From: an uncultured Fluviicola sp.
GTDB taxonomy: Bacteria > Bacteroidota > Bacteroidia > Flavobacteriales_D > Crocinitomicaceae
NCBI RefSeq assembly: GCF_902168135.1
Contig: NZ_CABHOL010000017.1
Coordinates: 62,001 to 126,000 of the forward strand
DNA: 64,000 bases
Direction of reading: 5' to 3'
The notes beneath the pieces were generated by a model. It ran no database searches. It saw nothing but the letters and a program-made list of their open reading frames with translations, and had not been told where the DNA came from. Position numbers and translations under genes: made by a program. Every line of letters starts with the position of its first letter. Positions within the stretch are counted from its first letter, which is position 1. Positions 15,268 through 29,584 of the stretch are shown piece after piece.

Positions 15268-15966
15268 TTAGGATTCGACTTTTCCGACCTTGTTGAAAAC
15301 CTTATACATTTCATTGTCAAAAAAACTAACGGTGACTATGTCGTCTGAGTTTAGAATGACATCTGTATTGAGTTCCGAGATAGATTGTACTTTACCTTCT
15401 TTAATGTATTCTCCATACACAGAAAGATAATGAGTTGTAAACACGACATTTTTCTGATCATCTCTGTATCCACTGATTATCGGTATGATTCTAACGTATT
15501 TGGATACAGAAGGTATCGGAAGTTCTTTTACCCAGGCGATATAGATTTTCCCGTTATTCAAAGTGAATAATAAGAGCTTATTTTCTGTAAAAGATGATTT
15601 CAGCTGTAATTCAAATTCGTTTCCGATAGCTTTAATAGCTTTTATAATCCGTTTCTTTTCATCTAAAAACAAATTACTGATTTCGGTGAAAGTAATTGAA
15701 AGAAGCAATATGCATAAAGATGTTCCGGCATAAGGCGATTTGATCGGAATAGCTTTGTAAACAATGTTTTGAAATTCCGGAGATGCAACAGATTCATAAA
15801 ATAAACGGATTGAATAAGTGATTATAGATGCTGCAACAGCCAATATAATGCTTTCAAAGACGAGTCTTTGCTGATCGATCCTTTGTTGTTTGAACTTGAA
15901 AAAATAGGATTTTGTGAATATGTAGTATCCCGCAACAAGCGGAAGCAATAGCAGGTTCCAGGGCAT
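15268..15966 (-). CDS. Membrane-anchored protein of unknown function
   Basis: 232 aa. Hydrophobic segments at about residues 3-18, 36-58 and 78-100 form a membrane-embedded N-terminal half; the C-terminal half (about 118-232) is a soluble beta-rich domain (KLLLFTLNNGKIYIAWVKEL, then VRIIPIISGYRDDQKN). I do not recognise the family with confidence; the layout recalls DUF6338-like proteins. It is the last gene of the minus-strand accessory block, 8 bp after a 62-aa protein gene, and converges with rfaE2 after only 28 bp with no obvious terminator. Confidence 0.6.
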   Translation of the reverse strand: MPWNLLLLPLVAGYYIFTKSYFFKFKQQRIDQQRLVFESIILAVAASIITYSIRLFYESVASPEFQNIVYKAIPIKSPYAGTSLCILLLSITFTEISNLFLDEKKRIIKAIKAIGNEFELQLKSSFTENKLLLFTLNNGKIYIAWVKELPIPSVSKYVRIIPIISGYRDDQKNVVFTTHYLSVYGEYIKEGKVQSISELNTDVILNSDDIVTVSFFDNEMYKVFNKVGKVES

Positions 15967-15974
15967 CTAGCGGG

Positions 15975-16163
15975 TTATTTTTTCTTTTCTTTTTCTCGCT
16001 TTTTCTGATATTCTTCAATATCTTTTACAATATCTGATTCTAGCAAATCTAAAATAATTTCGCGAACCTTTTGTTGTCTGAAAAAGTCCTGTGTACGAAT
16101 GTATAACCTCCCTTCTCTGGTGGATTGGATTATTTCATCGTTATTACTTACAATTGCACTCAT
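15975..16163 (-). CDS. Small charged protein, unknown function
   Basis: 62 aa. The middle contains REGRLYIRTQDFFRQQKVR and the C-terminal third is an uninterrupted charged helix ending in EKEKKK. No signal peptide or membrane segment. It sits between two membrane-protein genes on the same strand with an 8-bp gap to the next one, which supports a real gene. The ATG at 16161-16163 is preceded by AT-rich sequence. Confidence 0.5.
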   Translation of the reverse strand: MSAIVSNNDEIIQSTREGRLYIRTQDFFRQQKVREIILDLLESDIVKDIEEYQKKREKEKKK

Positions 16164-16238
16164 AACAGTAAATTACAATCAAATTTAATTAAAAAAACAG
16201 GGAATTCAAAATTTTAATTAAACCTGATAATTGGCAGT

Positions 16239-16709
16239 TTAAGATTCTTTTGTTTCTACACTCTTCACATAAAAATTGATCCAGCAAACCAGCGATATCA
16301 TCCCGATAATCATCGAAGGATAATAGCTCCAGAAACGGAAGCTTGAGTAGAAATCCAATTCGTCCCTGGAAATTCCTATGAGTCTTCGAAGGTGTTTGAT
16401 CTCGTAATCTTTTTTAGCCAGCTGCTCGTATTTCAAATCAAAAGATTCCAGCTTTTTCCTGAAATTGACAGAACCACTGAGTGTTAAATTCCGCTTTAAC
16501 CGGTTGAGGCTTTTGATTTCTTTGTAAAGTGTTTTGGATTCATCATTCATCAGATCTAATTTGTAGCTCAGTTCGCTTTGACGAATGCCAATTTCCCGGA
16601 TCTTATCGGTTGGATAAACGATGTTGAACAGGATGGTGCCGATACACATGGTCAGCAAAAACTTGAACACATTGTCTCCGGAAGACAAAAAACTACTTAC
16701 TGTTTCCAT
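16239..16709 (-). CDS. Two-helix membrane protein with coiled coil
   Basis: 156 aa from the ATG at 16707-16709; a TTG two codons earlier is open but unlikely. It has a transmembrane segment at about 15-33 (FKFLLTMCIGTILFNIV), a long charged helical region (about 38-112) with heptad-like Leu spacing, and a second transmembrane segment near 122-142 (YYPSMIIGMISLVCWINF). Both ends would be on the same side of the membrane. It overlaps the end of the PUA/EVE-like gene by 17 bp, so the two are co-expressed. No recognised family. Confidence 0.6.
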   Translation of the reverse strand: METVSSFLSSGDNVFKFLLTMCIGTILFNIVYPTDKIREIGIRQSELSYKLDLMNDESKTLYKEIKSLNRLKRNLTLSGSVNFRKKLESFDLKYEQLAKKDYEIKHLRRLIGISRDELDFYSSFRFWSYYPSMIIGMISLVCWINFYVKSVETKES

Positions 16710-17682
16710 TTTCAAGACTTGTTAAACGGTTAAAAATACTATCGTTCTCTACCTCCAGGTTTTTCCGGATGTTTTGGATGGAGTCCATGTAAGGAATGTA
16801 CTCGTTCGGAATATGTTCGCGATTCAGTTTCATGCTGATCTCTTCATCTGTGCAGCCATTCAGGAACATGGAAACAATCAGGCTCGTTAGGATCAATGAT
16901 TTCCCGACCGGTAGTTTGATATTGATGAATCCCGGAGAATTTAAACTCAATTTGACTGTTGTAGTATCGATTTTCTCTCCGAAATTGAAGTCTGTGTTGA
17001 CCTGCGAGATCAGTCCCAGGTAATTGTCGAATAGGTCTTTGAGATCTTTCAGACTGATTTCCGATTCTTTGTTGATCCGTAAAGACAAAAAACAATCGCC
17101 GTCCTTGATGTACAATTCTTCCATCAGCGAATCAATGAAATCCGCGTGTTTTTTGATGGAAACAATGGTGTGGGAATGCTTCAGCAGGTAAAACAAAGAA
17201 TTGTAATAATGGTGTTTAACGGAAGTTTTCAGCCAGTTTACTTTTCTTCTCTTGAGGAATCCGCCTGTTGACAGATCTGATCGGGAGGCGTTATAAATTT
17301 CATCATCTGCTATTTCACCGATACTGAAATAATCGGCATCTTCCGAAGGAATGAGTACCACGTCGCCCTTTTTCAGGTTTTTAAAAGTAAAGAGTTTGTT
17401 GATTGTTTTCGTAATCGATGATTTCTCTCCGGAACTCAATTTGTCATACGGAACGTTCCGGTATTTGTAACTGTTTGTAATGACGGATTTTCTAAGATAT
17501 TTCAGGTTTTCTTCCCGGATATCCTCAGCTGAAATGAAATTCCAGTTGATGCCGACATATCCTTTCCGGATAAAATCGGTATAATGATCTCCGCCATCGG
17601 TTCTAACATACCAATATTCTTTTTGGCTGTTTATTTCCGCTACCTGGTCGAAGATCGGATTCGTGTTTTTTAGATTTAGCAT
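16693..17682 (-). CDS. Protein with PUA/EVE-like N-terminal domain
   Basis: 329 aa from the ATG at 17680-17682; a GTG at 17736 is in frame but yields an unlikely N-terminus. Residues about 20-150 contain YWYVRTDGG (23-31), KGYVGINWN, KKGDVVLIP and YFSIGEIADDEIY, the pattern of PUA-superfamily/EVE-like domains that read modified bases and are often the N-terminal part of Mrr-type restriction proteins. No nuclease motif is visible after it; the C-terminal half is uncharacterised. Tight overlap with the next membrane-protein gene and a 90-bp gap from the accessory-family genes suggest one operon. The domain call is from motif recall and is moderate. Confidence 0.55.
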   Translation of the reverse strand: MLNLKNTNPIFDQVAEINSQKEYWYVRTDGGDHYTDFIRKGYVGINWNFISAEDIREENLKYLRKSVITNSYKYRNVPYDKLSSGEKSSITKTINKLFTFKNLKKGDVVLIPSEDADYFSIGEIADDEIYNASRSDLSTGGFLKRRKVNWLKTSVKHHYYNSLFYLLKHSHTIVSIKKHADFIDSLMEELYIKDGDCFLSLRINKESEISLKDLKDLFDNYLGLISQVNTDFNFGEKIDTTTVKLSLNSPGFINIKLPVGKSLILTSLIVSMFLNGCTDEEISMKLNREHIPNEYIPYMDSIQNIRKNLEVENDSIFNRLTSLENGNSK

Positions 17683-17772
17683 GCGGTTGGTTGGTGATAT
17701 GGTTTGTATTGCTGTGATTTTTAAAATCCGGGACACAGCTTTTAAGCGGCATCCCGAATTTAGGGTTAGGTT

Positions 17773-18447
17773 TTAGCCAACTTGTTCTTCGGCTATTTTT
17801 AGAACCAGCAGGTTTCCTGTTTTGGAAATCGTACCGGCTGTCGGAGTTTGTTCCAGAACGATATAATCATCCAATCCTTCTTCATCCGTGATCAAAGTAT
17901 CATCTTCGGCTCTGAGTTCGTAGATAAATCCAAGTCGCTGGATCATTTCTTTGGTTTCTGCATTCCAGTGGTCAAAATCAGGAACAAGTCGCAGATCCGC
18001 ACTGCCCGGAGGCGGAGGAACGGGAACAATTTTGAATTTCAGTTTTGCCATAGCATCTGCCTGAATTCCATATCGGTTCATGTTTCCTGCATTCAATGGG
18101 GTTGCATTCACTTTGTATTTCGAAAGTGTATAGCCCGTAGTGGGAGTAGATTGTTCCGATTTCAGGTCCAGTGACAGGGAAATCTGTGCTTCAACTTCTG
18201 TTTCGGGAATCGAATAAAATGTGGGTTGATATCCCATTTCGCGGATCAGGTTTACAAGATTTAATTCTTCGGTGGACCGATCTTCGTCTTTACTGATATC
18301 GTAAATGTCAAGCGTTTGCTGAAGTGCTCCCTGATCCAGGGCTGCCTGAGCATCGCCGACTCCCTGACCAACCGAGCTGATCAACTCACCCAATGGGCCG
18401 CCCAGCAATTCACTGAATAATTGAACGGGGTTATTTGTGTTACTCAT
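17773..18447 (-). CDS. Accessory-block family protein with C-terminal PASTA-like domain
   Basis: 224 aa, cytoplasmic by appearance (no signal peptide or membrane helix). The N-terminal 50 residues carry the family helix motif (LGELISSVGQGVGDAQAALD), then MGYQPTFYSIPETEVEAQIS, the core strand motif, and KIVPVPPPPG, equivalent to the LVxVPAP motif of its paralogues. Residues about 153-220 read as one PASTA-like repeat: VPDFDHWNAETKEMIQRLGF, ending IVLEQTPTAGTISKTGNLLV. It overlaps the upstream PASTA-ended gene by 8 bp. This fusion ties the PASTA domain to the unknown family. Function unknown. Confidence 0.7.
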   Translation of the reverse strand: MSNTNNPVQLFSELLGGPLGELISSVGQGVGDAQAALDQGALQQTLDIYDISKDEDRSTEELNLVNLIREMGYQPTFYSIPETEVEAQISLSLDLKSEQSTPTTGYTLSKYKVNATPLNAGNMNRYGIQADAMAKLKFKIVPVPPPPGSADLRLVPDFDHWNAETKEMIQRLGFIYELRAEDDTLITDEEGLDDYIVLEQTPTAGTISKTGNLLVLKIAEEQVG

Positions 18448-19357
18448 GTTTGTTAAAAATTACAGTTACTAATTGATTAGGTTGCGTATTCGTTCCCGGA
18501 GAAGGGAATTGTTTGAATGAATCTCCAATAACGACGGAATCCTTTTTCTGATAAACCGGGTTTAATTTTAGTCCGAGGTTTTTCAGGATCTTTCGAACAG
18601 CTGTTTCGGTTAAACCCAAAAGATTTGGAACTGCGATTGCATTGTTTTCCCTGTTAGTAACAGGAGTGATGTCAAAAAACAGTTCGCTGATAGCTTCGCC
18701 ATTCACGTTTTCGGAATTTTCCAGAGTCAGTAAAGATGCACTCAGTGATTCGCCGTCTCCATGAACAAGCGCTTTCAGTTTCAGTGAGATATTGGACAGC
18801 TTAAAAGGAAGTCCGTCAGCTGAATCCGTTGCAGTAGCAATCTCAGAAACAAGATTTGCATATAAATCCTGGATAGGAACCGGCGGAGTTTCTGGTTCTC
18901 CGGTATTCGTCGTAATCGGGAAATAGTTGGCGACCGGCAAAATCTCTTCGAATTCAGTGTTTGTGTCGAGGATCATTTCATCAGGGATCATAGTCATTTT
19001 GCCGAAATCAATGACGAAAGTTAGTATTCCATCAAGATCTTCCACTTTAAAAACAAATGAACTTGCGATAATTGGCTGTTTTACAATTCCTGATCCGATC
19101 GGGTTACTCGGAACGATCCTTAGCGGAGGCAGCCTCTCGGTAGCAATCAAGTTGTAAAAGATCCCTTCTTCCGTAGTGGCGGATCCAACAGGTTTTTCAA
19201 TGGTTAGTTGTCCTGCTGTGATCGTTTCTGCGAAAACAGTGATCCAGTTGCGATCTTTAAAACTATAGAATTGCACACGAACTGGAAGATCATCAAACGA
19301 TGCACCAGTTGAGTCATTAAGCTTAAACTTTAATGAGAAATTTTCAAATGTTATCAT
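18440..19357 (-). CDS. Beta-rich protein with C-terminal PASTA domain
   Basis: 305 aa without signal peptide. The first 130 residues look like beta-sandwich modules (FSLKFKLNDSTGASFDDLPV). A middle region (about 165-235) is acidic and Ser-rich. The last 65 residues are a convincing PASTA domain: VPNLLGLTETAVRKILKNLG, then FKQFPSPGTNTQPNQLVTVI. PASTA domains normally sit outside the cell on Ser/Thr kinases or PBPs and bind muropeptides; here no kinase or export signal exists. It overlaps the next gene by 8 bp and the previous one by 4 bp, so it is translationally coupled within the block. Confidence 0.7.
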   Translation of the reverse strand: MITFENFSLKFKLNDSTGASFDDLPVRVQFYSFKDRNWITVFAETITAGQLTIEKPVGSATTEEGIFYNLIATERLPPLRIVPSNPIGSGIVKQPIIASSFVFKVEDLDGILTFVIDFGKMTMIPDEMILDTNTEFEEILPVANYFPITTNTGEPETPPVPIQDLYANLVSEIATATDSADGLPFKLSNISLKLKALVHGDGESLSASLLTLENSENVNGEAISELFFDITPVTNRENNAIAVPNLLGLTETAVRKILKNLGLKLNPVYQKKDSVVIGDSFKQFPSPGTNTQPNQLVTVIFNKHE

Positions 19358-20028
19358 GGCTTACTAATTGCGATTGATGTAAATTGTGTGCCACTATTGG
19401 CTTTGAACACGAAGGTTCGGAGTAAGTCGTAGTCTGAGATTTTGAGTTTAACTTTTACCTTGAAACTCCCGTCTTCATTGATGGTATATCCGTCTTTCGG
19501 ATCGATGAAAACCGGTGGAGTAACAGCGTTGCCGCCGTTGAGGTTGAAGGAAGTGTCTGCATCAAAATTCAACTCTATTCGTTGGCCGCCAATAGGTTCT
19601 CCTGTCGGTTGGATTGCTTTTACAGTAATGGTGTAAAAAGCAAAGTCGGTTGCTATACTGTCTACGGCAGCAGATCCTATCAATAAAACCTGCGGTAATC
19701 CTTCGTTTGGCATAACGGCAACAAAACGTCCTGAAATGTTGCTTGTAATAGTTCCCAGGTTTCTGCTCGTGGTTTCGGTACTCCGAAACGGTACGAATCG
19801 GATTCCGTTTCCTCCGGTAGAACTTCCGCCTGTTTGGGTTGTTTCAAATTGTGAAATAACTTCCAGGTTAAAATCCAGGTAAGGAAGCTGGTATAAAGTA
19901 TTGGGTCTTCCGTATTCATCATACGGAGCCATGCTGCGCAAGGTGTCCTGCGCTTCATTCAAACTGTCCGCGATGCTGAGAACTATTTCATGCAGGGCCA
20001 GTGAATTGGTGGTTGTTGGTGAACTCAT
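19354..20028 (-). CDS. Accessory-block protein with family-like N-terminus and Ig-like C-terminus
   Basis: 224 aa. Residues about 8-45 match the family helix (LHEIVLSIADSLNEAQDTLR) in degenerate form, and LPYLDFNLEVISQFE could be the strand motif; the Pro-Ala-Pro motif is not evident. The C-terminal part (about 125-224) is a beta-sandwich-like domain (ITVKAIQPTGEPIGGQRIEL, then DGYTINEDGSFKVKVKLKIS) of the Big/Ig type that carries tunable loops. No signal peptide. The gene starts 3 bp after the coiled-coil gene and overlaps the PASTA-ended gene by 4 bp. Confidence 0.65.
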   Translation of the reverse strand: MSSPTTTNSLALHEIVLSIADSLNEAQDTLRSMAPYDEYGRPNTLYQLPYLDFNLEVISQFETTQTGGSSTGGNGIRFVPFRSTETTSRNLGTITSNISGRFVAVMPNEGLPQVLLIGSAAVDSIATDFAFYTITVKAIQPTGEPIGGQRIELNFDADTSFNLNGGNAVTPPVFIDPKDGYTINEDGSFKVKVKLKISDYDLLRTFVFKANSGTQFTSIAISKP

Positions 20029-20031
20029 TTT

Positions 20032-21105
20032 TTAATTGTATTTATCGTTTTTGCGTTCTTTTTTTCTACTTGACCGTTCTTCTTCTTTTCGTTCGGCCTT
20101 TTTTCTTGAAAGAAATCGTTCTTTCAGTCTTTCCCTGCGTTCTGTCTCCTTTTGCTCGGTTTCTTTTTGCTCCGCTTTTTTTGCCGAGGCGTTTTCCGAA
20201 ACTTTGTTTTGGCGGTCATCTAAGGTCAGTTCTTTCTCCAGTTTTTCGGTCATCTCTTTGATTTCCGGTACTTTTGATTCAAGGGATTCCAATGAATCTT
20301 TGATCTCTGATTTGACAGATTGACCAAAGCGTTTGGCTTCTTCCAACTTTTCGGAAAGTTTTTTAACCGCCACTTTCTCTTTCAGTTTTTCCTTCCGGGT
20401 TTCGTGTTTTTCATCCCAGTCGTCTCTTATCCTGCGAATTTTTTTAGGAATATCAGCAGTTTCTTTCACCTGGTCCAGTTTCTGTTGAAACTTCACAAGA
20501 TCCTTCTGTCCGAATGCATCAATCGGTTTTTTTAGTTCCTTGATTTTCTCAGGGACCTTCTTTACTTTTTCTATCAATTCGGTTTGCACTTTCTTTTTTC
20601 TTTCTATTACATCTTTCTCTTTCCGGATTGACTTGGTTTTAGACCAAAGTTTCTCGGAACTTTCTTTTATTGATTTTCGTGCTTTTTGGCTGGTTGAAGG
20701 ATCTTGTTCGGTTTCTTCTTTTTGCAAAGACCTGTTTTTTAGGGCTAATTTCTCTCTCAGACGGTCCTGAGTTTCCTCCCATTTCTTCAGTTCTTTGCTT
20801 TTTTTTAAGAGCCGCTCTTCCAGTTTTTTCTTTTGAGCGGCTCTGTTTTTTTCCTTCTCACGTTTACTTTTAAACGATTCGATAGTACCGGTGAACCGAG
20901 GATTTTCTTCTACAGGATTATTCGATTGAAGTAAATTGCCCATCTCATTTTCCAAAGACTGCCGTTCCTTCAACAAATCTTCCAATTTCTGATTTTGGGA
21001 TGCAATTTCATCCAGGGTAAATTGGGTATTACTAAAAGAGTTTTCGCTTTCGTTTTTTGAATCTGAATCAGTGGTTTTGATGAGTTTTTTCCAGCTTTTT
21101 GTCAT
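20032..21105 (-). CDS. Highly charged coiled-coil protein
   Basis: 357 aa, dominated by Lys, Glu, Arg and Ser, with almost no aromatic residues apart from scattered Phe and Trp. Long stretches have heptad character (ENEMGNLLQ, then LEERLLKKSKELKKWEETQ), predicting extended coiled coil or a partly disordered charged rod. The C-terminus is a run of KxER/KKxE repeats. No signal peptide, membrane helix or catalytic motif. It lies in the middle of the accessory operon with 26-bp and 3-bp gaps. A scaffold or linker role is possible but is inference only. Confidence 0.7.
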   Translation of the reverse strand: MTKSWKKLIKTTDSDSKNESENSFSNTQFTLDEIASQNQKLEDLLKERQSLENEMGNLLQSNNPVEENPRFTGTIESFKSKREKEKNRAAQKKKLEERLLKKSKELKKWEETQDRLREKLALKNRSLQKEETEQDPSTSQKARKSIKESSEKLWSKTKSIRKEKDVIERKKKVQTELIEKVKKVPEKIKELKKPIDAFGQKDLVKFQQKLDQVKETADIPKKIRRIRDDWDEKHETRKEKLKEKVAVKKLSEKLEEAKRFGQSVKSEIKDSLESLESKVPEIKEMTEKLEKELTLDDRQNKVSENASAKKAEQKETEQKETERRERLKERFLSRKKAERKEEERSSRKKERKNDKYN

Positions 21106-21131
21106 AATCTTGTTTTAGAATAGGTTAGTAA

Positions 21132-21680
21132 TTAATTTACGGTTTCCTCTTCCTCGAGCTCAGGCTGAATTCGGGCAATTTCTGTTTCGTCCATTAATTG
21201 TTTTAAACGACTTTCAAACATTGCCGGAGCAGGAACTGTTACGAGTTTGGTACGCATTTCGGAACTTCCGTTTGCTTCGTATTGGTATTTCTGAGAATAA
21301 CTTGCGTTTACAGATGCTGCAATTACACCAAATGGTGACCAGGCAACACCTTTGACAGAAGATTCAGCACTGATTTCCTCTTCTTTCCTCATTGAAATAG
21401 CCAATTTAAGTTCAATGTATGTCTCTACAAACTGGTAAAACGTAGGTGTAAAACCAAGAGCCAGTAAGCTCACTCCGTCATCTCCTTCTCTGAGTTTAAT
21501 CAGTGAAGTTTCATCACGTTCCAGGTTTCCTTGATCATTCAGTTTGAATCCCGCCATTAACTGCGCGATTTTGATAGAAACACGATCGAGAGCATATTGA
21601 GCCTCGGCAATCCCTACACCAAGCGTTCGAACTAATTCCGGAAACGGAGCATTCAATAACTCTCTTCCAACATTTATCAT
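21132..21680 (-). CDS. Accessory-block family protein, compact form
   Basis: 182 aa and a clean example of the family. N-terminal helix FPELVRTLGVGIAEAQYALD and the following SIKIAQLMAG; then a short charged insert; then SLLALGFTPTFYQFVETYIE with LKLAISMRKEE; then VNASYSQKYQYEANGSS and MRTKLVTVPAPAMFESRLKQ. It is closest to the 292-aa neighbour, with which it shares the last two motifs almost unchanged. No signal peptide or membrane segment. The 58-bp gap upstream holds a hairpin (21706-21730). Function unknown. Confidence 0.75.
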   Translation of the reverse strand: MINVGRELLNAPFPELVRTLGVGIAEAQYALDRVSIKIAQLMAGFKLNDQGNLERDETSLIKLREGDDGVSLLALGFTPTFYQFVETYIELKLAISMRKEEEISAESSVKGVAWSPFGVIAASVNASYSQKYQYEANGSSEMRTKLVTVPAPAMFESRLKQLMDETEIARIQPELEEEETVN

Positions 21681-21705
21681 AAGCTTATTGATTAAGGGTT
21701 AATAA

Positions 21706-21730
21706 GGCAGCTGCCGCTTTGACAGCTGCC
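21706..21730. other. Intercistronic hairpin in the accessory operon
   Basis: 8-bp perfect stem GGCAGCTG / CAGCTGCC with a 9-nt loop, flanked by direct AGGGTTAA copies. No T-run follows on the minus strand, so it is more likely an mRNA processing or stability element than a terminator. Confidence 0.45.
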
Positions 21731-21738
21731 AGGGTTAA

Positions 21739-22617
21739 TTATGCCGGAGTTTGTACTGGCTGAGTTCCTTCATTGTTGAACTCTTCTTCCATCATTCGCT
21801 GGATGCGCTGCTCCAGAACTGCAGGTGCAGGGATCGGAACCAATTTGGTGCGAAGCAAACTGGATCCTTCCGCTGAGTAGCTGTACTTCTGAGCATAACT
21901 TGCGTTAACCTGTGAAGTTTGAACCGATCGTCCGAATTTAATTCTTCCGAATCCATGACCAATACGAGCTGCACTTGATCTTAAATTGTTGTTTACGGCA
22001 GAACTTGTATTTCCTTCCTGTGTGTAACGAATGGAAATTTTCACTTCAATGATAGTATCAACGAATTGATAGAAAGTCGGGGTGAAACCACATTCCAACA
22101 TGGAAATTCTTCGAGGAAGACTTACAGCTACACCGGCATCTGTTGAAGGGGATGTTAAAGCAATCTCCAGGTCTCCATAGGCTACCTGAACAGAAGCTCC
22201 TCCACCAACGGTACCTACATGGTAAAAACCTTGATAATCGATGTAGGTATTTTCAGCAATTGCTGCTCCGGGAGTAAATCCTGGTGGAACAGTAGAAGTT
22301 AACGTTGGTTGGTAATCGCCAGCCAATACTCCACGAATCTCCGCTTTTTGCTGGATGTTTGTTGTAGAGTTGTGACGAGCAATCGCTTCACCTTTTGTGA
22401 TGCTTTCCGTTCCGAAATACACTCGACTATCTTCAAAAGTGACATTTCCAGCTTCATCCGTAACGGTTGTTAAACCGCCCATCATTTCGGCTACATCGAT
22501 AGAGTTCTGATCCAGAACGATTTGTGCTTCTGCGATTGCAAAAGCCATTTGGCGAATCATGTCGCCCATAGGCACGTCAAGAAGTTCCTGACCAATGCGT
22601 GGTTTGTTGTTAAACAT
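21739..22617 (-). CDS. Accessory-block family protein with 110-residue insert
   Basis: 292 aa. The family helix (MGDMIRQMAFAIAEAQIVLD, NSIDVAEMMGG) comes first. An insert of about 110 residues follows (about 48-165), Gly/Thr/Val-rich and beta-like, including PGFTPGAAIAENTYIDYQGF, not shared with paralogues. Then the core ISMLECGFTPTFYQFVDTII with EVKISIRYTQE, and VNASYAQKYSYSAEGSSLLR running into TKLVPIPAPAVLEQRIQRMM. No signal peptide. The 25-26-bp gaps on both sides fit one operon. I cannot assign a function. Confidence 0.75.
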   Translation of the reverse strand: MFNNKPRIGQELLDVPMGDMIRQMAFAIAEAQIVLDQNSIDVAEMMGGLTTVTDEAGNVTFEDSRVYFGTESITKGEAIARHNSTTNIQQKAEIRGVLAGDYQPTLTSTVPPGFTPGAAIAENTYIDYQGFYHVGTVGGGASVQVAYGDLEIALTSPSTDAGVAVSLPRRISMLECGFTPTFYQFVDTIIEVKISIRYTQEGNTSSAVNNNLRSSAARIGHGFGRIKFGRSVQTSQVNASYAQKYSYSAEGSSLLRTKLVPIPAPAVLEQRIQRMMEEEFNNEGTQPVQTPA

Positions 22618-22642
22618 ACTTTGTTGTTTTTGTGATTAATGA

Positions 22643-23104
22643 TTACGTTGTTGTGTTTCCTTCTGTGCTTAAGTTTTTCAGAAGTGTAACTAAATTTTCG
22701 GGTGGAGGCAGAGAAACCATGCGGGCTGCAATACTCGAAGAAGCCGAAGCTGATTGATCGAATTTACGTGCGTAGCCTGCACTCACGGTCGTTGAGACCA
22801 TTTTTGTTTCCACTGAAACCACTCCGTTTACATCGAAAGCAGTTGATTCCGACATTGCAAAATCCATTTTCGCTTCAAAACTTGCTTCCGTGAAAGCGTA
22901 GAAACTGGGTACAAAACCTAAGTTTAATAGGCTGACCTGATTTTCTCCGATTTCCACGGTACTGGAAGCGAGTTGTTTCAACATGTTGATGGAATTGGTG
23001 TCCAATGCTGCCTGAGCGGTTGCTACCGAAAGTCCCATGTTTTCGATCATAGACGAAAGCGGGGAATTCGTTAGTGTACTTGTGATTGTTTCAATTGCTG
23101 CCAT
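22643..23104 (-). CDS. Accessory-block family protein, minimal form
   Basis: 153 aa, the shortest member and probably close to the core fold. It has the N-terminal helix (LSSMIENMGLSVATAQAALD, TNSINMLKQL), the core strand motif SLLNLGFVPSFYAFTEASFE with AKMDFAMSES, and the C-terminal SAGYARKFDQSASASSSIAA followed by RMVSLPPPENLVTLLKNL. No insert, signal peptide or membrane helix. It lies between the 606-aa OmpA-containing member and the 292-aa member with gaps of about 25 bp. Function unknown. Confidence 0.75.
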   Translation of the reverse strand: MAAIETITSTLTNSPLSSMIENMGLSVATAQAALDTNSINMLKQLASSTVEIGENQVSLLNLGFVPSFYAFTEASFEAKMDFAMSESTAFDVNGVVSVETKMVSTTVSAGYARKFDQSASASSSIAARMVSLPPPENLVTLLKNLSTEGNTTT

Positions 23105-23130
23105 GTGCCAGGAGTTTTAATAGGTTAATA

Positions 23131-24951
23131 CTATTCTCCGCTCACATAGACAGTTCGAAGGAATCCGACAAAGTCCTGAGGAGCCGGAACTGCAACCAGT
23201 CTGGCAGACATAGCGGCATTCCCTTCCATAGACATTTCAAACTGACGCGACATTCTGAAATCCACACTTGCACCTAAAGCGAAAGAGCTATCCTGGGATC
23301 TGTTGCTTACAGAATCATTCAAAATAGACTTTTCATTCTTCGTTTTTGATGTTAGGAAGCTGTTGGATACTTCGGTACCTGAACTGCTGCTTTCATCATC
23401 GTGCTCAATGGAGATCTCTTCTGTCAGGTTTGTAAGCAATGTGAATTTGACGATGGATTCATCTTCGAGGAAGTAATGTTGTCCATCTTTAAACTCGTAA
23501 GAATGGCTCTCGATTTTTGAGGAAACGTGTTCCACAACCTCACTGAAGGCTTCATCTAGATTATAGAACAATACTGCGGATCCATATTTTGCATCCAATT
23601 TATGGAAAGGCTCAGTTGTATTCACATCGGCGTAAACAAACTTATTAGGACCTGTAGATGATTTGACAGGAGTAGCATCTTCAGTCACATTTCCGTCAAT
23701 GAAAATCAGATAATCGCTATCTAACTCAATTGCGGCATAACGCTGCTCCAGGTTACTGTTCCCCGGGTCATTGGTTACCGAATCGATCTTTACGTTGACA
23801 GGAGCAGTTGATCCGAAAATGTAAGACTTCAGATTTTCAGCACGTCTTTTTGCCAAACTTTGGTTTTTCGGATTATTTCCTCCTTTCGGATCTGTCATCC
23901 CTGTAATGGTGATCGATGATTCCGGATCATAGTTATGGATCAATCGCAGCACCTTGTGTACAAGACCATGGTCTGAATGGTTTTTGTTTGCTACAACACC
24001 CGGAGGATATCCTGCAACTGAATTGTCGTTTGGTCCTGTTTTCAGATCTTTAGTCATGGTAACTTCGTCGCTGTTGTACGGGAAGTAAATGGTGCTTAGA
24101 ATCGGTGCCCAGACGCTGTTAACGTTATCGTATTGATATACTTTTCCATCTTTGCTTACTCCGTATAACTGACCTCCACCTAAAACATCTGGATGGTCTG
24201 CGGCATCCAATGTTGTAATCAAGTTTGTGGTAACTGTGAAATCCGCACCTGATCCGTTTACATCAACAAGAGTAGTTGGTGAATAACTACCGATTTTAAG
24301 AATTCCGACAGCATCTTTTTTGTAATGCAGACTTTCTTCCAGTCGAATGAAACCATTGTCTATCCAAATATCCACACCTCGACTGTTGTTATTGGTCAGT
24401 TTTTTGGACTGGATATCTTCGTAAACCTGTTCTACCGAAGCTTGAGTAATAATGTCATGCTTGAACTTTTCAATCCGACTTTTTGCTTCAAGGGCTTCAC
24501 TTTGCTTCACAAATTTATTGTTAATCTTAACCGAGTTTTTTTCATTGGCCCGGAAATTCATTTGTCTGGAAGCTTTGTATTCCTCGGTTGTTTCAGAGTA
24601 GCTGTCTTCACTCAAAAAGTTATGTGTATCTTCGGAATATCCTTTGTTTTTGGCTATTTGGAGATCCAATCCGAATCCGAATTCCAATGCTTCTTTCAGG
24701 GCCATTTTTAAGTTGATGCTGGCGCTGATGTCTGCATATTGGAATGCATAGAATACCGGAGCGAACCCTAATTCCAACAAGGAAACACCGTTGATCTGGG
24801 TTTCTGCCAATTTAATAGCCTGCGCTATCGAATTGTCATCTAGTTTCTGTTGAGCTTCAGCAATTCCGAGGGCAAGGTTTTTGAAGATGTCACTGACATC
24901 AACCTGCTGCAGAATGGAAGCTCCATCACTGAATTTGGTTAAATCACTCAT
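23131..24951 (-). CDS. Accessory-block family protein with inserted OmpA-like domain
   Basis: 606 aa. Residues 20-90 carry the family helix and core (LGIAEAQQKLDDNSIAQAIK, SLLELGFAPVFYAFQYADIS) and residues 555-600 the C-terminal motif (ALGASVDFRMSRQFEMSMEG, then ARLVAVPAPQDFVGFLR). Between them is an insert of about 450 residues: a charged helical region (about 100-190), a beta-rich region (about 190-285) and an OmpA_C-like domain (about 288-410) with TGMTDPKGGNNPKNQSLAKR. That segment holds the Asp (354) and Arg (370) expected to bind diaminopimelate. There is no signal peptide. The start lies 18 bp after a structured intergenic element. Confidence 0.75.
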   Translation of the reverse strand: MSDLTKFSDGASILQQVDVSDIFKNLALGIAEAQQKLDDNSIAQAIKLAETQINGVSLLELGFAPVFYAFQYADISASINLKMALKEALEFGFGLDLQIAKNKGYSEDTHNFLSEDSYSETTEEYKASRQMNFRANEKNSVKINNKFVKQSEALEAKSRIEKFKHDIITQASVEQVYEDIQSKKLTNNNSRGVDIWIDNGFIRLEESLHYKKDAVGILKIGSYSPTTLVDVNGSGADFTVTTNLITTLDAADHPDVLGGGQLYGVSKDGKVYQYDNVNSVWAPILSTIYFPYNSDEVTMTKDLKTGPNDNSVAGYPPGVVANKNHSDHGLVHKVLRLIHNYDPESSITITGMTDPKGGNNPKNQSLAKRRAENLKSYIFGSTAPVNVKIDSVTNDPGNSNLEQRYAAIELDSDYLIFIDGNVTEDATPVKSSTGPNKFVYADVNTTEPFHKLDAKYGSAVLFYNLDEAFSEVVEHVSSKIESHSYEFKDGQHYFLEDESIVKFTLLTNLTEEISIEHDDESSSSGTEVSNSFLTSKTKNEKSILNDSVSNRSQDSSFALGASVDFRMSRQFEMSMEGNAAMSARLVAVPAPQDFVGFLRTVYVSGE

Positions 24952-24969
24952 AAATTAATTGTTTTTAAT

Positions 24970-25101
24970 GTTTTGTACGAAATACAGGCTGCGTCCGAAA
25001 GATGAGGGTGTAACCGGTATGCCCTGGTCATTTTAATGATGGGTTTCAGGCGGACAGTTATTTGTGCGCACAAATAAGGCTGCCTGTATTTCGTATAAAA
25101 C
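24970..25101. other. 132-nt structured intergenic element (RNA or small MITE-like element)
   Basis: Near-perfect 20-bp terminal inverted repeat (24970-24989 / 25082-25101, 19 of 20 matching) encloses a perfect 20-bp palindrome (25058-25077, centred on GTGCGCAC) and further pairs such as GTCCG (24993-24997) with CGGAC (25051-25055). It fills most of the 155-bp gap between the TPR gene and the 606-aa gene, which starts 18 bp after the repeat. It could fold into a multi-branch leader RNA or be a small non-autonomous element. Confidence 0.65.
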
Positions 25102-25106
25102 GGGGT

Positions 25107-25661
25107 TTAGAACGGATTGATCATTTCCGGCAGTTGAACTGCTATTTTTTCGTTGACATTCTCTTTACGAACCGTAAAGTAGCGATGCCTGTTTTGTAGA
25201 TCACGCACTTTTTGGTGAGTAATCGCATAACCTCTTCGAAGCCAGTTCAGTAACTCTTTTGCCAGAGGCATGGATAGTTCCTTTGCTTCTTTAAGAGCTG
25301 CGTCGAAAGCTTCAATCGCTTCTGTTTTTTCATCCAGGTAAATACACTGGATTCCTTTCCGTTCCCAGAGCGATGCGAGGTTTTTCCTGAACCATTCATC
25401 TGTACGTTCGGCCTTTTTAGGTGTCAGGAAATCAATGCTTTTCTCACAAAAAGTGATGATTTCTTCGTGTGCCTCCATCAATTCCAGGGATTCCATTGCA
25501 CACAAACTGTAATGCTGCAGGAAGAGCTCCGAATTTTCGACTGACTGGCACATGCGCATAGCCTCTTTGTAGTGGCGCAATGCTTCTTTGTGATCTCCTT
25601 TTAAAGCGAGGATTTTTCCGTTTTCAGCGATTTGGAGATGGAGGTTAGTTTTTTCTTTCAT
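25107..25661 (-). CDS. TPR-repeat protein
   Basis: 184 aa, all helical. At least two to three TPR-like units are visible: GKILALKGDHKEALRHYKEA near the N-terminus, a degenerate middle unit, and ERKGIQCIYLDEKTEAIEAF near residue 117, with the usual small-residue and aromatic positions. The C-terminal 45 residues are not TPR. No signal peptide. It lies 5 bp after the L7/L12-like repeat gene, so it is the second gene of the accessory operon. TPR proteins are usually adaptors; the partner is probably encoded in the block (inference). Confidence 0.75.
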   Translation of the reverse strand: MKEKTNLHLQIAENGKILALKGDHKEALRHYKEAMRMCQSVENSELFLQHYSLCAMESLELMEAHEEIITFCEKSIDFLTPKKAERTDEWFRKNLASLWERKGIQCIYLDEKTEAIEAFDAALKEAKELSMPLAKELLNWLRRGYAITHQKVRDLQNRHRYFTVRKENVNEKIAVQLPEMINPF

Positions 25662-25666
25662 TGGTC

Positions 25667-26725
25667 TTAGTATTCGTATTCAATTTCACATCCAAGAATT
25701 TCCAATTGCTTTTCAAGAAGCCTGCTCAGGATACTTGCGAGCGGAAGTGGTGTCTTCCAGGTTCCGGAACTTTGGTCGTAGGTGACATCCTTGAAGAATT
25801 TATCCAGGATTTCACGGAACTTTTCGGAATCTGTAATGTTACTCACAGCAAGGGAATACTTTCCGAATGGAATTTGTTCATCGGAACAGCGCAGTCCAAC
25901 TTGTTTGTACAAGGCAAGTTTTTGCTCGAGTTCTCCATGATTTACGGATTCATCCAATAAAAGAGGAAGGTTTGCGTGAATCTCTGCGAGTGCTTCCTGC
26001 GGCATCCCGATTTCGTTGACCAGGAAATCCGTTTGAGCAGCACTCTCCGGGTTAAAGTCTTCCAGGAGGATCCTGAACCTGGAATAACTTTGGTTGTAGA
26101 TCTTCATCTCATGCTGGGAACGGTAGCGGGTTAAAAACTGATTGAGTTGTTCGTAGGTTAAATTGCGTACCCATCTGGTTTCTCCACCCGGGATAGCAAT
26201 TTCCTGACTTCTGATTAGGTTGATCAGTTTTTGGCGATCGGCTTCGGCGTTTGCAGTAAATTCTATGGTGTATAAATCCAGCTTTGGATTGCTGGCGATG
26301 ACTTCTGCATCGATTCTTTTTTGCAGACTTTCTGCGGTTGCCATAGAAACCCCACCTAAAACCACGCTTGGTTCATTCAGCAAAAGTTGAAGGGATTCAC
26401 TTTCATTGCAGCCAAGAAATTCAGACAATTGCTTGTTGACGGTGCTTAGCTTCACCGGATCTTTGATGTATACGGAAACATCAAGTGCTTCTGTAGGAAG
26501 AGGAGCGGTTTCATCTGTGTTCTGAACCAAAACTTCCAGCCCAAGTTCGGTTAAGATGAGAAATGCTTTCTTTGCTAATTCTTCTTCTGCATTGTCCAAA
26601 AAGACGGCGGGCGCATTGTAAAGAATTTTAAACAGAAGGTCCTGATTGATGTCAAAGGCTTCGGAAAGAGCTTTGATGACATGAGGCGTTGCCGTACCAA
26701 CGGAAAGGATAATAATTCGTTTCAC
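25667..26725 (-). CDS. Protein with repeated L7/L12-C-terminal-domain-like units
   Basis: 352 aa, GTG start at 26723-26725. It is built of four or five related alpha/beta units resembling the ribosomal protein L7/L12 C-terminal fold. In unit 1, VIKALSEAFDINQDLLFKIL is followed by APAVFLDNAEEELAKKAFLI and LTELGLEVLV. Unit 2 has QLSEFLGCNESESLQLLLNE and PSVVLGGVSMATAESL. Units near residues 215-285 and 290-352 repeat the plan. This is pattern recall, not a search. No signal peptide. It is the first gene after the operon promoter, with a predicted leader of about 65 nt. Confidence 0.65.
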   Translation of the reverse strand: MKRIIILSVGTATPHVIKALSEAFDINQDLLFKILYNAPAVFLDNAEEELAKKAFLILTELGLEVLVQNTDETAPLPTEALDVSVYIKDPVKLSTVNKQLSEFLGCNESESLQLLLNEPSVVLGGVSMATAESLQKRIDAEVIASNPKLDLYTIEFTANAEADRQKLINLIRSQEIAIPGGETRWVRNLTYEQLNQFLTRYRSQHEMKIYNQSYSRFRILLEDFNPESAAQTDFLVNEIGMPQEALAEIHANLPLLLDESVNHGELEQKLALYKQVGLRCSDEQIPFGKYSLAVSNITDSEKFREILDKFFKDVTYDQSSGTWKTPLPLASILSRLLEKQLEILGCEIEYEY

Positions 26726-26796: not shown

Positions 26797-26828
26797 CAAA
26801 GATAAGAAATCTATTTCGTTCTACCAAA
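26797..26828 (-). promoter_or_regulatory. Strong promoter of the accessory-block operon
   Basis: On the minus strand TTTG (26828-26825), a 20-nt spacer and TATCTTTG (26804-26797) give a full match to the Bacteroidota -33/-7 consensus, about 70 bp before the GTG at 26725. Upstream sequence is strongly AT-rich and holds the 15-bp inverted repeat at 26847-26926. Confidence 0.75.
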
Positions 26829-27016: not shown

Positions 27017-27742
27017 TTACAATCCTAATCGTGCCTTCAAATCACTGTAGGAAGAACGGGAAATCGGAATGCTTGTACCGCTCTTTAAAATGGCAACGTA
27101 GCTGTTTTTTTCGTATGATTCGATCTTGGTCAACTGGTTTACATTTAATATATAGGAACGATGGATCCGGATGAACTGATCTTTCGGAAGTACTTGTTCG
27201 AAATGGTTCATGGTCTGTTTCTTCAGAATGTATTTCTTTCCCTGGTAGATTTTTACATAATCATCATAAGCTTCAATGTAATCCACTTCATCGATCGGGA
27301 TGATCTTGATTTCGGTTCCGTCTTTTACAACTATCCGGTTCTGTTCGTGGATAATCTGAAGCGGGATATCCCTTTTGGTTTCATACTGTAATTCGGAATT
27401 CCGTTTTTTGCTTACTGCAGTATCAAAACGTTCTTCAGAAAATGGCTTCAATAAGTAATCCAGTGCATTTACTTCGAATGCTTTCAAAGCGAACTCATCG
27501 AATGCCGTGGTAAAGATTACAGACGGATTTTCTGATAACAGCTCCAATAATTCAAAACCATTGATTTTCGGCATTTGAATGTCCAGGAATAATAGGTCCG
27601 GTTTAACTTCGGGAATCAGCTTCAATGCTTCAAATCCATCATTTGCTTCTCCGACCAGGACAATATCCGTGTATTTCTGTAAGTGTTTTTTGACAACTTC
27701 TCTTGCCAGAGGTTCATCGTCTACAATAAATGCCTTAATCAT
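27017..27742 (-). CDS. LytTR-family response regulator
   Basis: 241 aa. An N-terminal receiver domain has the acidic pocket (VDDEPLA near residue 7), the phospho-acceptor Asp in LLFLDIQMPKINGF, and the conserved Lys in LLKPFSEERF. The C-terminal LytTR DNA-binding domain (about 140-241) shows VDYIEAYDDYVKIYQ and FIRIHRSYILNVN. It overlaps the sensor kinase gene by 4 bp, forming a LytS/LytR-type pair, and is the last gene of an operon that begins with a LiaF-like protein. Targets cannot be read from the window. Confidence 0.92.
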   Translation of the reverse strand: MIKAFIVDDEPLAREVVKKHLQKYTDIVLVGEANDGFEALKLIPEVKPDLLFLDIQMPKINGFELLELLSENPSVIFTTAFDEFALKAFEVNALDYLLKPFSEERFDTAVSKKRNSELQYETKRDIPLQIIHEQNRIVVKDGTEIKIIPIDEVDYIEAYDDYVKIYQGKKYILKKQTMNHFEQVLPKDQFIRIHRSYILNVNQLTKIESYEKNSYVAILKSGTSIPISRSSYSDLKARLGL

Positions 27743-28764
27743 TTCGGGATCAAAATTTTAGTAATGAATAGTTTGTCTTGCTTCTCGGTTGTCAGGAGGT
27801 CGTATTGATTGAATAACAGCATTAACCGGCGTTTGATACTTGTGAGACCGAAACCTTTTCCGGTTTTGTATTGGGTGAAATCAACATCGAACGGATTCCG
27901 GACTTCGATCATCAAACCGTTTTCCTGTTGCTTTACTCCTACATAAATGGTTACTTCATCCATCGAGCCATATAGTCCGAATTTGATTGCATTTTCGATA
28001 ACAGGCTGGAGCAACAGGGGAGGTACCGGTGTTTTCATACAGCCTTCATCGATGTCGAACTCGGTTTTCAAGCGATGTCCGAACCGGATCTTTTCGATTT
28101 CCAGGTAGCGTTTCACTTGTTCAATTTCTTCTGCAATGGGAATTAAGGTTTGAATGTCTTTTCGCAGCGTTCCGCGTAAAAAGTCGCTCAATAATAAGAT
28201 CATCCGGTTTGCTTCTTTCGGGTTGATTTCCGTCAATGCTCCGATTGAATTCAAACTGTTGAAAAGGAAATGCGGCTGTAACTGCTGATGGATGTTATCC
28301 AATTCGGCCTTTGTCAATGCGCGTTCTTGTTCAATGAGCTGCTGATGCACTTGTGATTGGATTTGCTGGTTTTTATTGATCCACCAGTATAAGCTCACCG
28401 AGATTAAAATAAAGAAGACAATAAATGCCCGTGCTCCTTCAAAAGGAAGGATGTATTCCCGCCAGCGTTCTTCACCCAAGACCAGTCTGAATGCGCTGTT
28501 TATTATAAGTTGGTAAAATGCCGTTAGAACCACAACCAACCCGAAATTGGAAAAATTTACTGGTCTTTTCGCGTGATAATATGTCTGGATGAAATAAATG
28601 ATCTGAGAAATTACGGAAATAAGTAAGCCGGAGAAAAGCGTGTCTTTCCAAACAATGTCAAAGGGATAGTGATTGACTAAGAGCACAACAAAAAAGACAA
28701 GACTGGCAATCACCGTCCAAACGATGAAAAGCAATTGCACTTTTGTACTAGTCTTTAAGAACAT
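27739..28764 (-). CDS. LytS-type sensor histidine kinase
   Basis: 341 aa. Four N-terminal hydrophobic segments (about 8-30, 40-60, 73-92, 108-128) are followed by a coiled linker and the His_kinase (PF06580-type) domain with the phospho-acceptor in QLQPHFLFNSLNSIGAL. A HATPase_c domain ends the protein (PVIENAIKFGLYG as the N box, GKGFGLTSIKRRL as the G box). No extracellular sensory domain is present, so it probably senses through its membrane segments or the co-encoded LiaF-like protein 7 bp upstream (inference). Confidence 0.92.
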   Translation of the reverse strand: MFLKTSTKVQLLFIVWTVIASLVFFVVLLVNHYPFDIVWKDTLFSGLLISVISQIIYFIQTYYHAKRPVNFSNFGLVVVLTAFYQLIINSAFRLVLGEERWREYILPFEGARAFIVFFILISVSLYWWINKNQQIQSQVHQQLIEQERALTKAELDNIHQQLQPHFLFNSLNSIGALTEINPKEANRMILLLSDFLRGTLRKDIQTLIPIAEEIEQVKRYLEIEKIRFGHRLKTEFDIDEGCMKTPVPPLLLQPVIENAIKFGLYGSMDEVTIYVGVKQQENGLMIEVRNPFDVDFTQYKTGKGFGLTSIKRRLMLLFNQYDLLTTEKQDKLFITKILIPK

Positions 28765-28771
28765 TCTTTAC

Positions 28772-29584
28772 TTATTTATTAAAACTGTTCACTTCAATTC
28801 CTCCGAACATGCAGGTTCCTCTCAAAATAATGACCTTGCTTTCTTCGCCGGTTTCTCTTTGGTATTGCGGACGCTTATCTTCAAATGCACCGAAAATGCT
28901 GGCAACTTCGGAAATGACTTCCCAATTGTTCGGAATGGTAAGGGTTGTTCCTCCGAAAATGTTGGTTACATCAATAACAATCCGTCCCTGGAAATCTGCC
29001 TGCATCAGGTTAATGTCCGTTCCTCCGAAGAACGAAACGATGTCTGCACCTTTAAATGTTTTACTGACGATTGTTTTGGTAATCCCACCAAAGAAGCTGA
29101 CACTGTCAATGAAATCGTCTTCGTTGTATTTGTAATAGCTGAAACCCCGTTGTTGAGCTTCGTGGATCTGTTTCCAATTTTCACGGGTAAAGCGCTGCTT
29201 TCTGCGGTGGCGTCTTCCGAACTTTTTGTTGGATAAGAAAACAATTGCCAGACCTACAATAATGATTGCAACGGGCAGAATGATCTTTACGTTAATCAAT
29301 TTCGGATACCATTCTGCAAGGAGAAAGATCTTACCGATAATAATCATCAGGTAACCGTGGAATTTGCTGAATTTGTGTTTGATCAATACTACGGTCCCAA
29401 TGGCAATAAGAATCATCTGCCAGCTGAGTAAATATTCGGGAATGTGGTAGCCCAGCTGTTTCAAGAGGTAAACTACCCCAAAGAAAACGATGGCTAATCC
29501 ACCTGCTATTTTTCCGCGACGATGTCCTTTTTGTGCTTTTAAGATTTCGTGTTCAATTTCCGTGCGGATATTATCTGTTTCCAT
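28772..29584 (-). CDS. LiaF-like protein (cell-wall-active antibiotics response type)
   Basis: 270 aa. The N-terminal half holds about four hydrophobic helices (residues 24-118; GGLAIVFFGVVYLLKQLGYH, then MILIAIGTVVLI), as in LiaF/DUF5668 proteins. The C-terminal half is a beta-helix-like domain with repeated Phe-Gly-Gly turns: VSFFGGITKTIV, VSFFGGTDINLM, NIFGGTTLTI and TCMFGGIEVNSF. In Firmicutes LiaF restrains a kinase until envelope stress. Here the gene directly precedes a LytS/LytTR pair, suggesting an analogous envelope-stress circuit. Promoter box at 29605-29612. Confidence 0.85.
   Translation of the reverse strand: METDNIRTEIEHEILKAQKGHRRGKIAGGLAIVFFGVVYLLKQLGYHIPEYLLSWQMILIAIGTVVLIKHKFSKFHGYLMIIIGKIFLLAEWYPKLINVKIILPVAIIIVGLAIVFLSNKKFGRRHRRKQRFTRENWKQIHEAQQRGFSYYKYNEDDFIDSVSFFGGITKTIVSKTFKGADIVSFFGGTDINLMQADFQGRIVIDVTNIFGGTTLTIPNNWEVISEVASIFGAFEDKRPQYQRETGEESKVIILRGTCMFGGIEVNSFNK

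Follow-up and report, generated by a model that had tools for sequence, protein, structure and literature searches.

Several kinds of described bacterial system resemble, in one respect or another, the locus reported here, a ten-gene operon at positions 17,773 to 26,725 of a 64,000-nucleotide stretch of DNA (that is, the window) from an uncultured Fluviicola species (Bacteroidota; NCBI RefSeq assembly GCF_902168135.1, contig NZ_CABHOL010000017.1, positions 62,001 to 126,000). Proteins of the DUF2589 family (PF11655) share with it a remotely homologous core, whereas their loci, among those examined, are not ten-gene operons of this kind but short ones, in most of which a single helix-plus-strand gene keeps the DUF2589 gene company. 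R-bodies (Reb) likewise comprise several proteins without signal peptides from one operon of patchy spread. Lysis-released complexes (that is, Tc toxins, tailocins and contractile injection systems) are cytoplasm-made complexes with endolysin and holin genes beside them, and such genes also stand beside some loci homologous to ours. Trypco2 (PF19631), to which some H-type and related proteins of homologous loci show weak similarity, is described as trypsin-co-occurring (PMC7159879) and as an adapter domain (PMC10907252).

The operon is real and strongly conserved, and no description of it was found in the literature searched. Its genes, here lettered A to J, were found with the positions, lengths and single direction given in an original prediction made from the letters alone, all on the minus strand (Table 1), and are separated by −8 to 58 bp except for B and C, where alone the gap is 155 bp. 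Six genes (C, D, E, F, H and J) are copies of one core. Alignment bears out three common blocks in C, D, E, F and J, and a profile hidden Markov model (HMM) of F-type proteins finds E, D and J (Table 1) as well as C (E 3.9e-22), a resemblance far above chance; the match is split in two in E and C because of inserts, which occupy residues 71–166 ahead of strand 1 in E and separate the two core strands by about 446 residues in C. For H, only the N-terminal helix had been predicted to be shared; the helix is common, but the sharing is wider, as hhalign joins the H and J families at 96% (E 2.5e-9) over 116 columns, and the H family to those of F, C, D and E at 76%, 46%, 18% and 5%, respectively. 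We read H, which the F-type HMM misses in HMMER (E 1.3), as a sixth, diverged core copy on the strength of this profile comparison. The AlphaFold2 model of F predicts an N-terminal helix, a long hairpin (81–104/127–149) and a C-terminal helix, and the weak resemblance of this hairpin to ring and pore hairpins is taken as a lead only. Given that the core has no fitting Pfam or NCBIfam model (ten window proteins, and for Pfam also 52 core members) and that none of the ten window proteins matches PHROGs at E up to 0.1, the proposal of an undescribed protein family is supported.

To judge the conservation of gene order, a single genome from each species was scanned, which gave at least 590 pattern stretches, 130 of them encoding relatives; the best 80 of these 130 were kept, and loci were defined by gene calling and family HMMs, 66 of the 80 not being cut by the stretch end. 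HMMs do not separate D, E and F well enough to order them, so the comparison used the places where A, B, C, G, H, I and J first appear; the order A-B-C-G-H-I-J was kept in 66 of 66 uncut loci, among which L055 says little on order because only C-D-E-F was seen there. All ten families occur in 47 of the 66; those not found were B (10 loci), C (7), G (6), D (4), H (2) and A, I and J (1 each), and the 80-locus set favours full operons because the loci were found via core proteins of the full operon. Isolates with the complete set of ten genes include Halomonas fontilapidosi and Kordia periserrulae. At the place of C, Neptuniibacter and Oceanobacter have a core protein of 173–212 amino acids (aa), and the protein there in Pleionea is 560 aa long and has its better score as F. 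By label, 51 of the 80 loci belong to Pseudomonadota and 23 to Bacteroidota, with single loci from Gemmatimonadota, Latescibacterota, Acidobacteriota, Verrucomicrobiota, Myxococcota and Chloroflexota (five of these six records are titled as metagenome-assembled genomes; the Myxococcota one, Corallococcus, is not). One record counted in the 51 (L010, titled Glaciecola amylolytica) matches the Fluviicola-type congeneric genome G003 and is taken as mislabelled. Such rigid cross-phylum conservation supports a functional unit, as ten genes kept in one order across phyla must do something selectable.

Within the window’s genus, the operon is present in 7 of 14 genomes, and of 395 evenly drawn Bacteroidota genomes, 4 carry relatives of the core (the window’s own and three with a short version of the operon). 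Two genes flanking the operon, one a membrane gene of the lysylphosphatidylglycerol-synthase type and the other a histidine kinase, were located across the genus as markers. The distance between them is 13.0 kb in the window’s genome; in four of the seven operon-less congeners (the remaining three lack one or both flanks by the search used) it is 1.3, 2.0, 2.2 and 6.2 kb, and cytidylyltransferase and response-regulator genes and at most one other gene of >100 aa lie in between. As the flanks stand close in these four, the operon was gained or lost as a block and is one co-inherited unit. The short version, found on a Sphaerotilus plasmid (L006:11643-14422) and in three Bacteroidota genomes of 2.2–2.5 Mb (L110:2293-5658, L111 and L112), comprises five genes in one order: the first encodes a protein of approximately 100 aa, the next two encode core proteins, the fourth an H-like protein and the last a coiled coil. 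Between Sphaerotilus and L110, the first of the two core proteins has 77% identity, an indication of transfer between phyla.

A resemblance to DUF2589, originally offered as a hypothesis, holds as remote homology by hhalign but not by the Pfam model itself. A merged profile of F, D and J aligned to a DUF2589 profile (38 proteins from loci L098-L137) at 89.9% (E 1.7e-6, score 43.7) over 144 collinear columns, and 0 of 60 block-shuffled DUF2589 profiles scored as high (maximum 18.3); singly, F reached 69% and D 83%, and the H family was not above shuffles (1.8%, 5 of 60 as high). The PF11655 model matches 27 of 395 Bacteroidota genomes and had no match in the window’s genome, with 14 controls silent too, nor in any window protein or any of the 52 core members (scanned at E up to 1). 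The profile alignments thus support the core as a remote homologue of DUF2589. The core did not turn out to belong to a family whose role is established, as DUF2589, although a known family, has no role in the literature searched. In two DUF2589 loci (L100 and L113), a patatin-like gene adjoins the DUF2589 gene, as judged by eye.

The accessory parts of the operon were largely anticipated, with qualifications. The L7/L12-like repeats of A hold at the level of the family, which is similar to the ribosomal L7/L12 C-terminal domain (with E 1 as the limit, PF00542 matches 24 of 38 members, the strongest at 2.3e-7; the family profile matches PDB 1ctf at E 9.4e-6; and 35 of 38 members have at least two repeats at an independent E value below 0.1), but the window protein alone has no PF00542 match. 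B is a TPR protein, as claimed, and a G-type gene occupies the same place in homologous loci. Of the OmpA-like and PASTA-like parts, the PASTA match of I lies above its Pfam cut-off, and the OmpA match of C and the PASTA match of J (E 0.026) lie below theirs. The domain in C has the OmpA-like fold and keeps its peptidoglycan-contact residues, an Asp/Arg pair. Of the 28 H-type and related proteins that were scanned, 8 have an Ig-like Big_1 match (the C-terminal part of some homologues), and the window H protein itself has none. At the place of I, L070:2807-7447 encodes a 1546-aa protein whose N-terminal part looks, by eye, like LamG/concanavalin repeats. The predicted lack of signal peptides agrees with a crude hydropathy test, which marks 0 of 10 window proteins and, across homologues, 13 of 748 cassette proteins, C accounting for 7, versus 174 of 625 flanking proteins.

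Genes directly downstream of the operon include wall hydrolases in some lineages. A same-strand gene lies within 250 bp downstream of J in 30 of 72 J-bearing loci, and the 51 such genes (at most three per locus) contain five Amidase_2, one GH108 and one M74 (partial) match, that is, seven loci in five lineages, all seven hydrolases appearing by eye to have no signal peptide. In Pleionea (L034, 14213-16099), an extra core protein is followed by a GH108 endolysin and then a gene transfer agent (GTA)-type holin. For comparison, 118 of 343 flanking genes were scanned, with counts from the 25 families listed; among these, Peptidase_M15_4 occurs in 2 of 118 and PG_binding_1 in 3 of 118. Fisher’s test gives p 0.004 for hydrolase enrichment, or 0.009 if one flanking hit were hidden, in a comparison that ignores relatedness, and we regard the link between operon and wall hydrolases as suggestive. 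In L073 (14284-17772), two downstream genes have in common an N-terminal leader of 42 residues, with 50% identity, and then a low-complexity linker; beyond the linker, the first gene matches PG_binding_1 and, in part, a murein peptidase. Such a leader could serve to dock cargo.

We tentatively propose, with a confidence that stops a little short of probable, that the operon encodes a cytoplasm-made multi-subunit assembly that engages peptidoglycan and is released by lysis in some lineages. The six homologous subunits, with their DUF2589-like core (helix, long beta-hairpin, helix), would build the assembly, for which the TPR protein B and the coiled-coil protein G are likely helpers; A is a further member of the unit. 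The subunits would be made in the cytoplasm, with variation confined to loops and tails that present modules: in C, an OmpA-like domain for peptidoglycan binding that is set between its two core strands, and in H, I and J, Ig-like and PASTA modules. Because the subunits carry such modules, the assembly most likely engages peptidoglycan, and in some lineages at least it may be freed by, or act with, a neighbouring endolysin-type enzyme (once together with a holin). The cytoplasmic assembly of related subunits in the original prediction is still something that we infer, as are its oneness and stoichiometry, and the wall modules and some of the hydrolases suggest the cell wall as its possible target.

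Several observations weigh against this proposal. Without signal peptides, the wall modules cannot reach peptidoglycan unless by lysis or an unrecognised export path. The window copy has no downstream wall hydrolase, 23 of the 30 loci with a downstream same-strand gene carry a non-hydrolase there, and the enrichment falls to p 0.055 when five lineages are counted against three flanking hits; PG_binding_1 is not clearly enriched, as it occurs in 3 of 118 flanking and 2 of 51 downstream genes. In three loci (L065:13928-14965, L069:13900-14955 and L071:13894-15003), the Amidase_2 domain directly after J is fused to a CobU cobinamide kinase domain and may be metabolic.

The same proteins could instead form a purely intracellular polymer or inclusion, R-body-like and built from several small paralogues, in which PASTA, Ig and OmpA are generic packing modules. 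The scarcity of signal peptides, the several paralogues with a coiled coil and the existence of the five-gene short version (L006, L110-L112), in which none of the five proteins from Sphaerotilus matches OmpA or PASTA, would all suit such a polymer; the retention of the OmpA peptidoglycan-contact residues and the wall hydrolases downstream in five lineages speak against it, and neither the ten window proteins nor the 52 core members match a Reb family. The ten-gene composition and wall-binding modules also set the operon apart from R-bodies. We consider the intracellular polymer doubtful, if still worth serious thought. A bolder form of the assembly that we favour, a nanomachine unrelated to phage tails in which stacked DUF2589-like rings bear the peptidoglycan-binding domain on their hairpin tips and, assembled in the cytoplasm and freed by lysis, act against the walls of other cells, is speculative and unlikely.

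Less likely still is a part in a conflict system, where the operon would act as an adaptor or sensor module of the kind proposed for Trypco2 and the core proteins would couple a sensor to an effector. Of 28 H-type and related proteins, 3 do match Trypco2 (E 0.001 at best), but the one match traced (L056:13614-14048, E 0.001) has 19.7 bits, below the curated cut-off of 24.2; moreover, Pfam and NCBIfam scans of the ten window proteins gave no NTPase or effector enzyme family, and Pfam no trypsin or MoxR/vWA family among them. Ig-like parts occur in phage tail proteins, and their presence here, the endolysin and holin downstream in L034 and the weak similarity of G to an NCBIfam tail-tube model (E 0.26, 11.1 bits, cut-off 102.8) might suggest that the operon derives from, or is what remains of, a phage tail or contractile injection system. 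Such an origin is very improbable given the silence of PHROGs, the lack of a match for F in 50,697 phage records, the lack of any relative in IMG/VR scans and the lack of a sheath, tube or baseplate family above cut-off among the window proteins in Pfam and NCBIfam. From lysis-released complexes in general, the operon differs in that no common structural gene was found and that wall hydrolases stand beside only 7 of 72 J-bearing operons.

Table 1 Features of the operon and its surroundings in the window.
Feature	Coordinates	Strand	Remarks
Gene A, 352 aa	25667..26725	−	Tandem L7/L12 C-terminal-domain-like repeats
Gene B, 184 aa	25107..25661	−	TPR protein; TPR_2 E 3.1e-7, above Pfam cut-off
Gene C, 606 aa	23131..24951	−	Core protein; OmpA-like domain within inter-strand insert
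Gene D, 153 aa	22643..23104	−	Minimal core protein; core HMM E 1.7e-38
Gene E, 292 aa	21739..22617	−	Core protein, insert 71-166; core HMM E 1.4e-63, split match
Gene F, 182 aa	21132..21680	−	Core protein; AlphaFold2 model
Gene G, 357 aa	20032..21105	−	Highly charged; coiled coil (by eye)
Gene H, 224 aa	19354..20028	−	Remote core protein; hhalign to J family
Gene I, 305 aa	18440..19357	−	C-end PASTA, E 2.3e-8, above Pfam cut-off
Gene J, 224 aa	17773..18447	−	Core protein, PASTA-like C-terminal part; core HMM E 6.9e-23
Candidate Bacteroidota-type promoter	26797..26828	−	Consensus match 71 bp before gene A
Two trailing genes, 347 + 158 aa	16239..17736	−	Only in some Fluviicola-type copies

The one strong promoter originally predicted is unsupported, as a sigma-70 scan found 9 sites, fewer than the 19.7 in shuffles. 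By the Bacteroidota promoter consensus, TTTG-20-TANNTTTG upstream of A (26797-26828) is a match, to a pattern that is no rarer than chance (5 matches in the window versus 4.2 expected). Relatives of both trailing genes follow J in L007, L009, L010 and L011 and not in L008, and these genes are probably outside the core operon. Together with a further gene, they make three post-operon genes at 15268-17736 (347, 158 and 232 aa; hydrophobic segments in the last two) that have relatives in some Fluviicola-type loci only and no Pfam family above its cut-off. Upstream, at 27017-29584 on the operon’s strand, lie a LytTR response regulator, a histidine kinase and a LiaF-like membrane gene, which are probably outside the operon because they are present in congeners without it.

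In summary, the core proteins of this conserved ten-gene unit have no family model, and no role for them was found in the literature searched; through its remote homology to DUF2589, the operon would supply a system-level context for that family.

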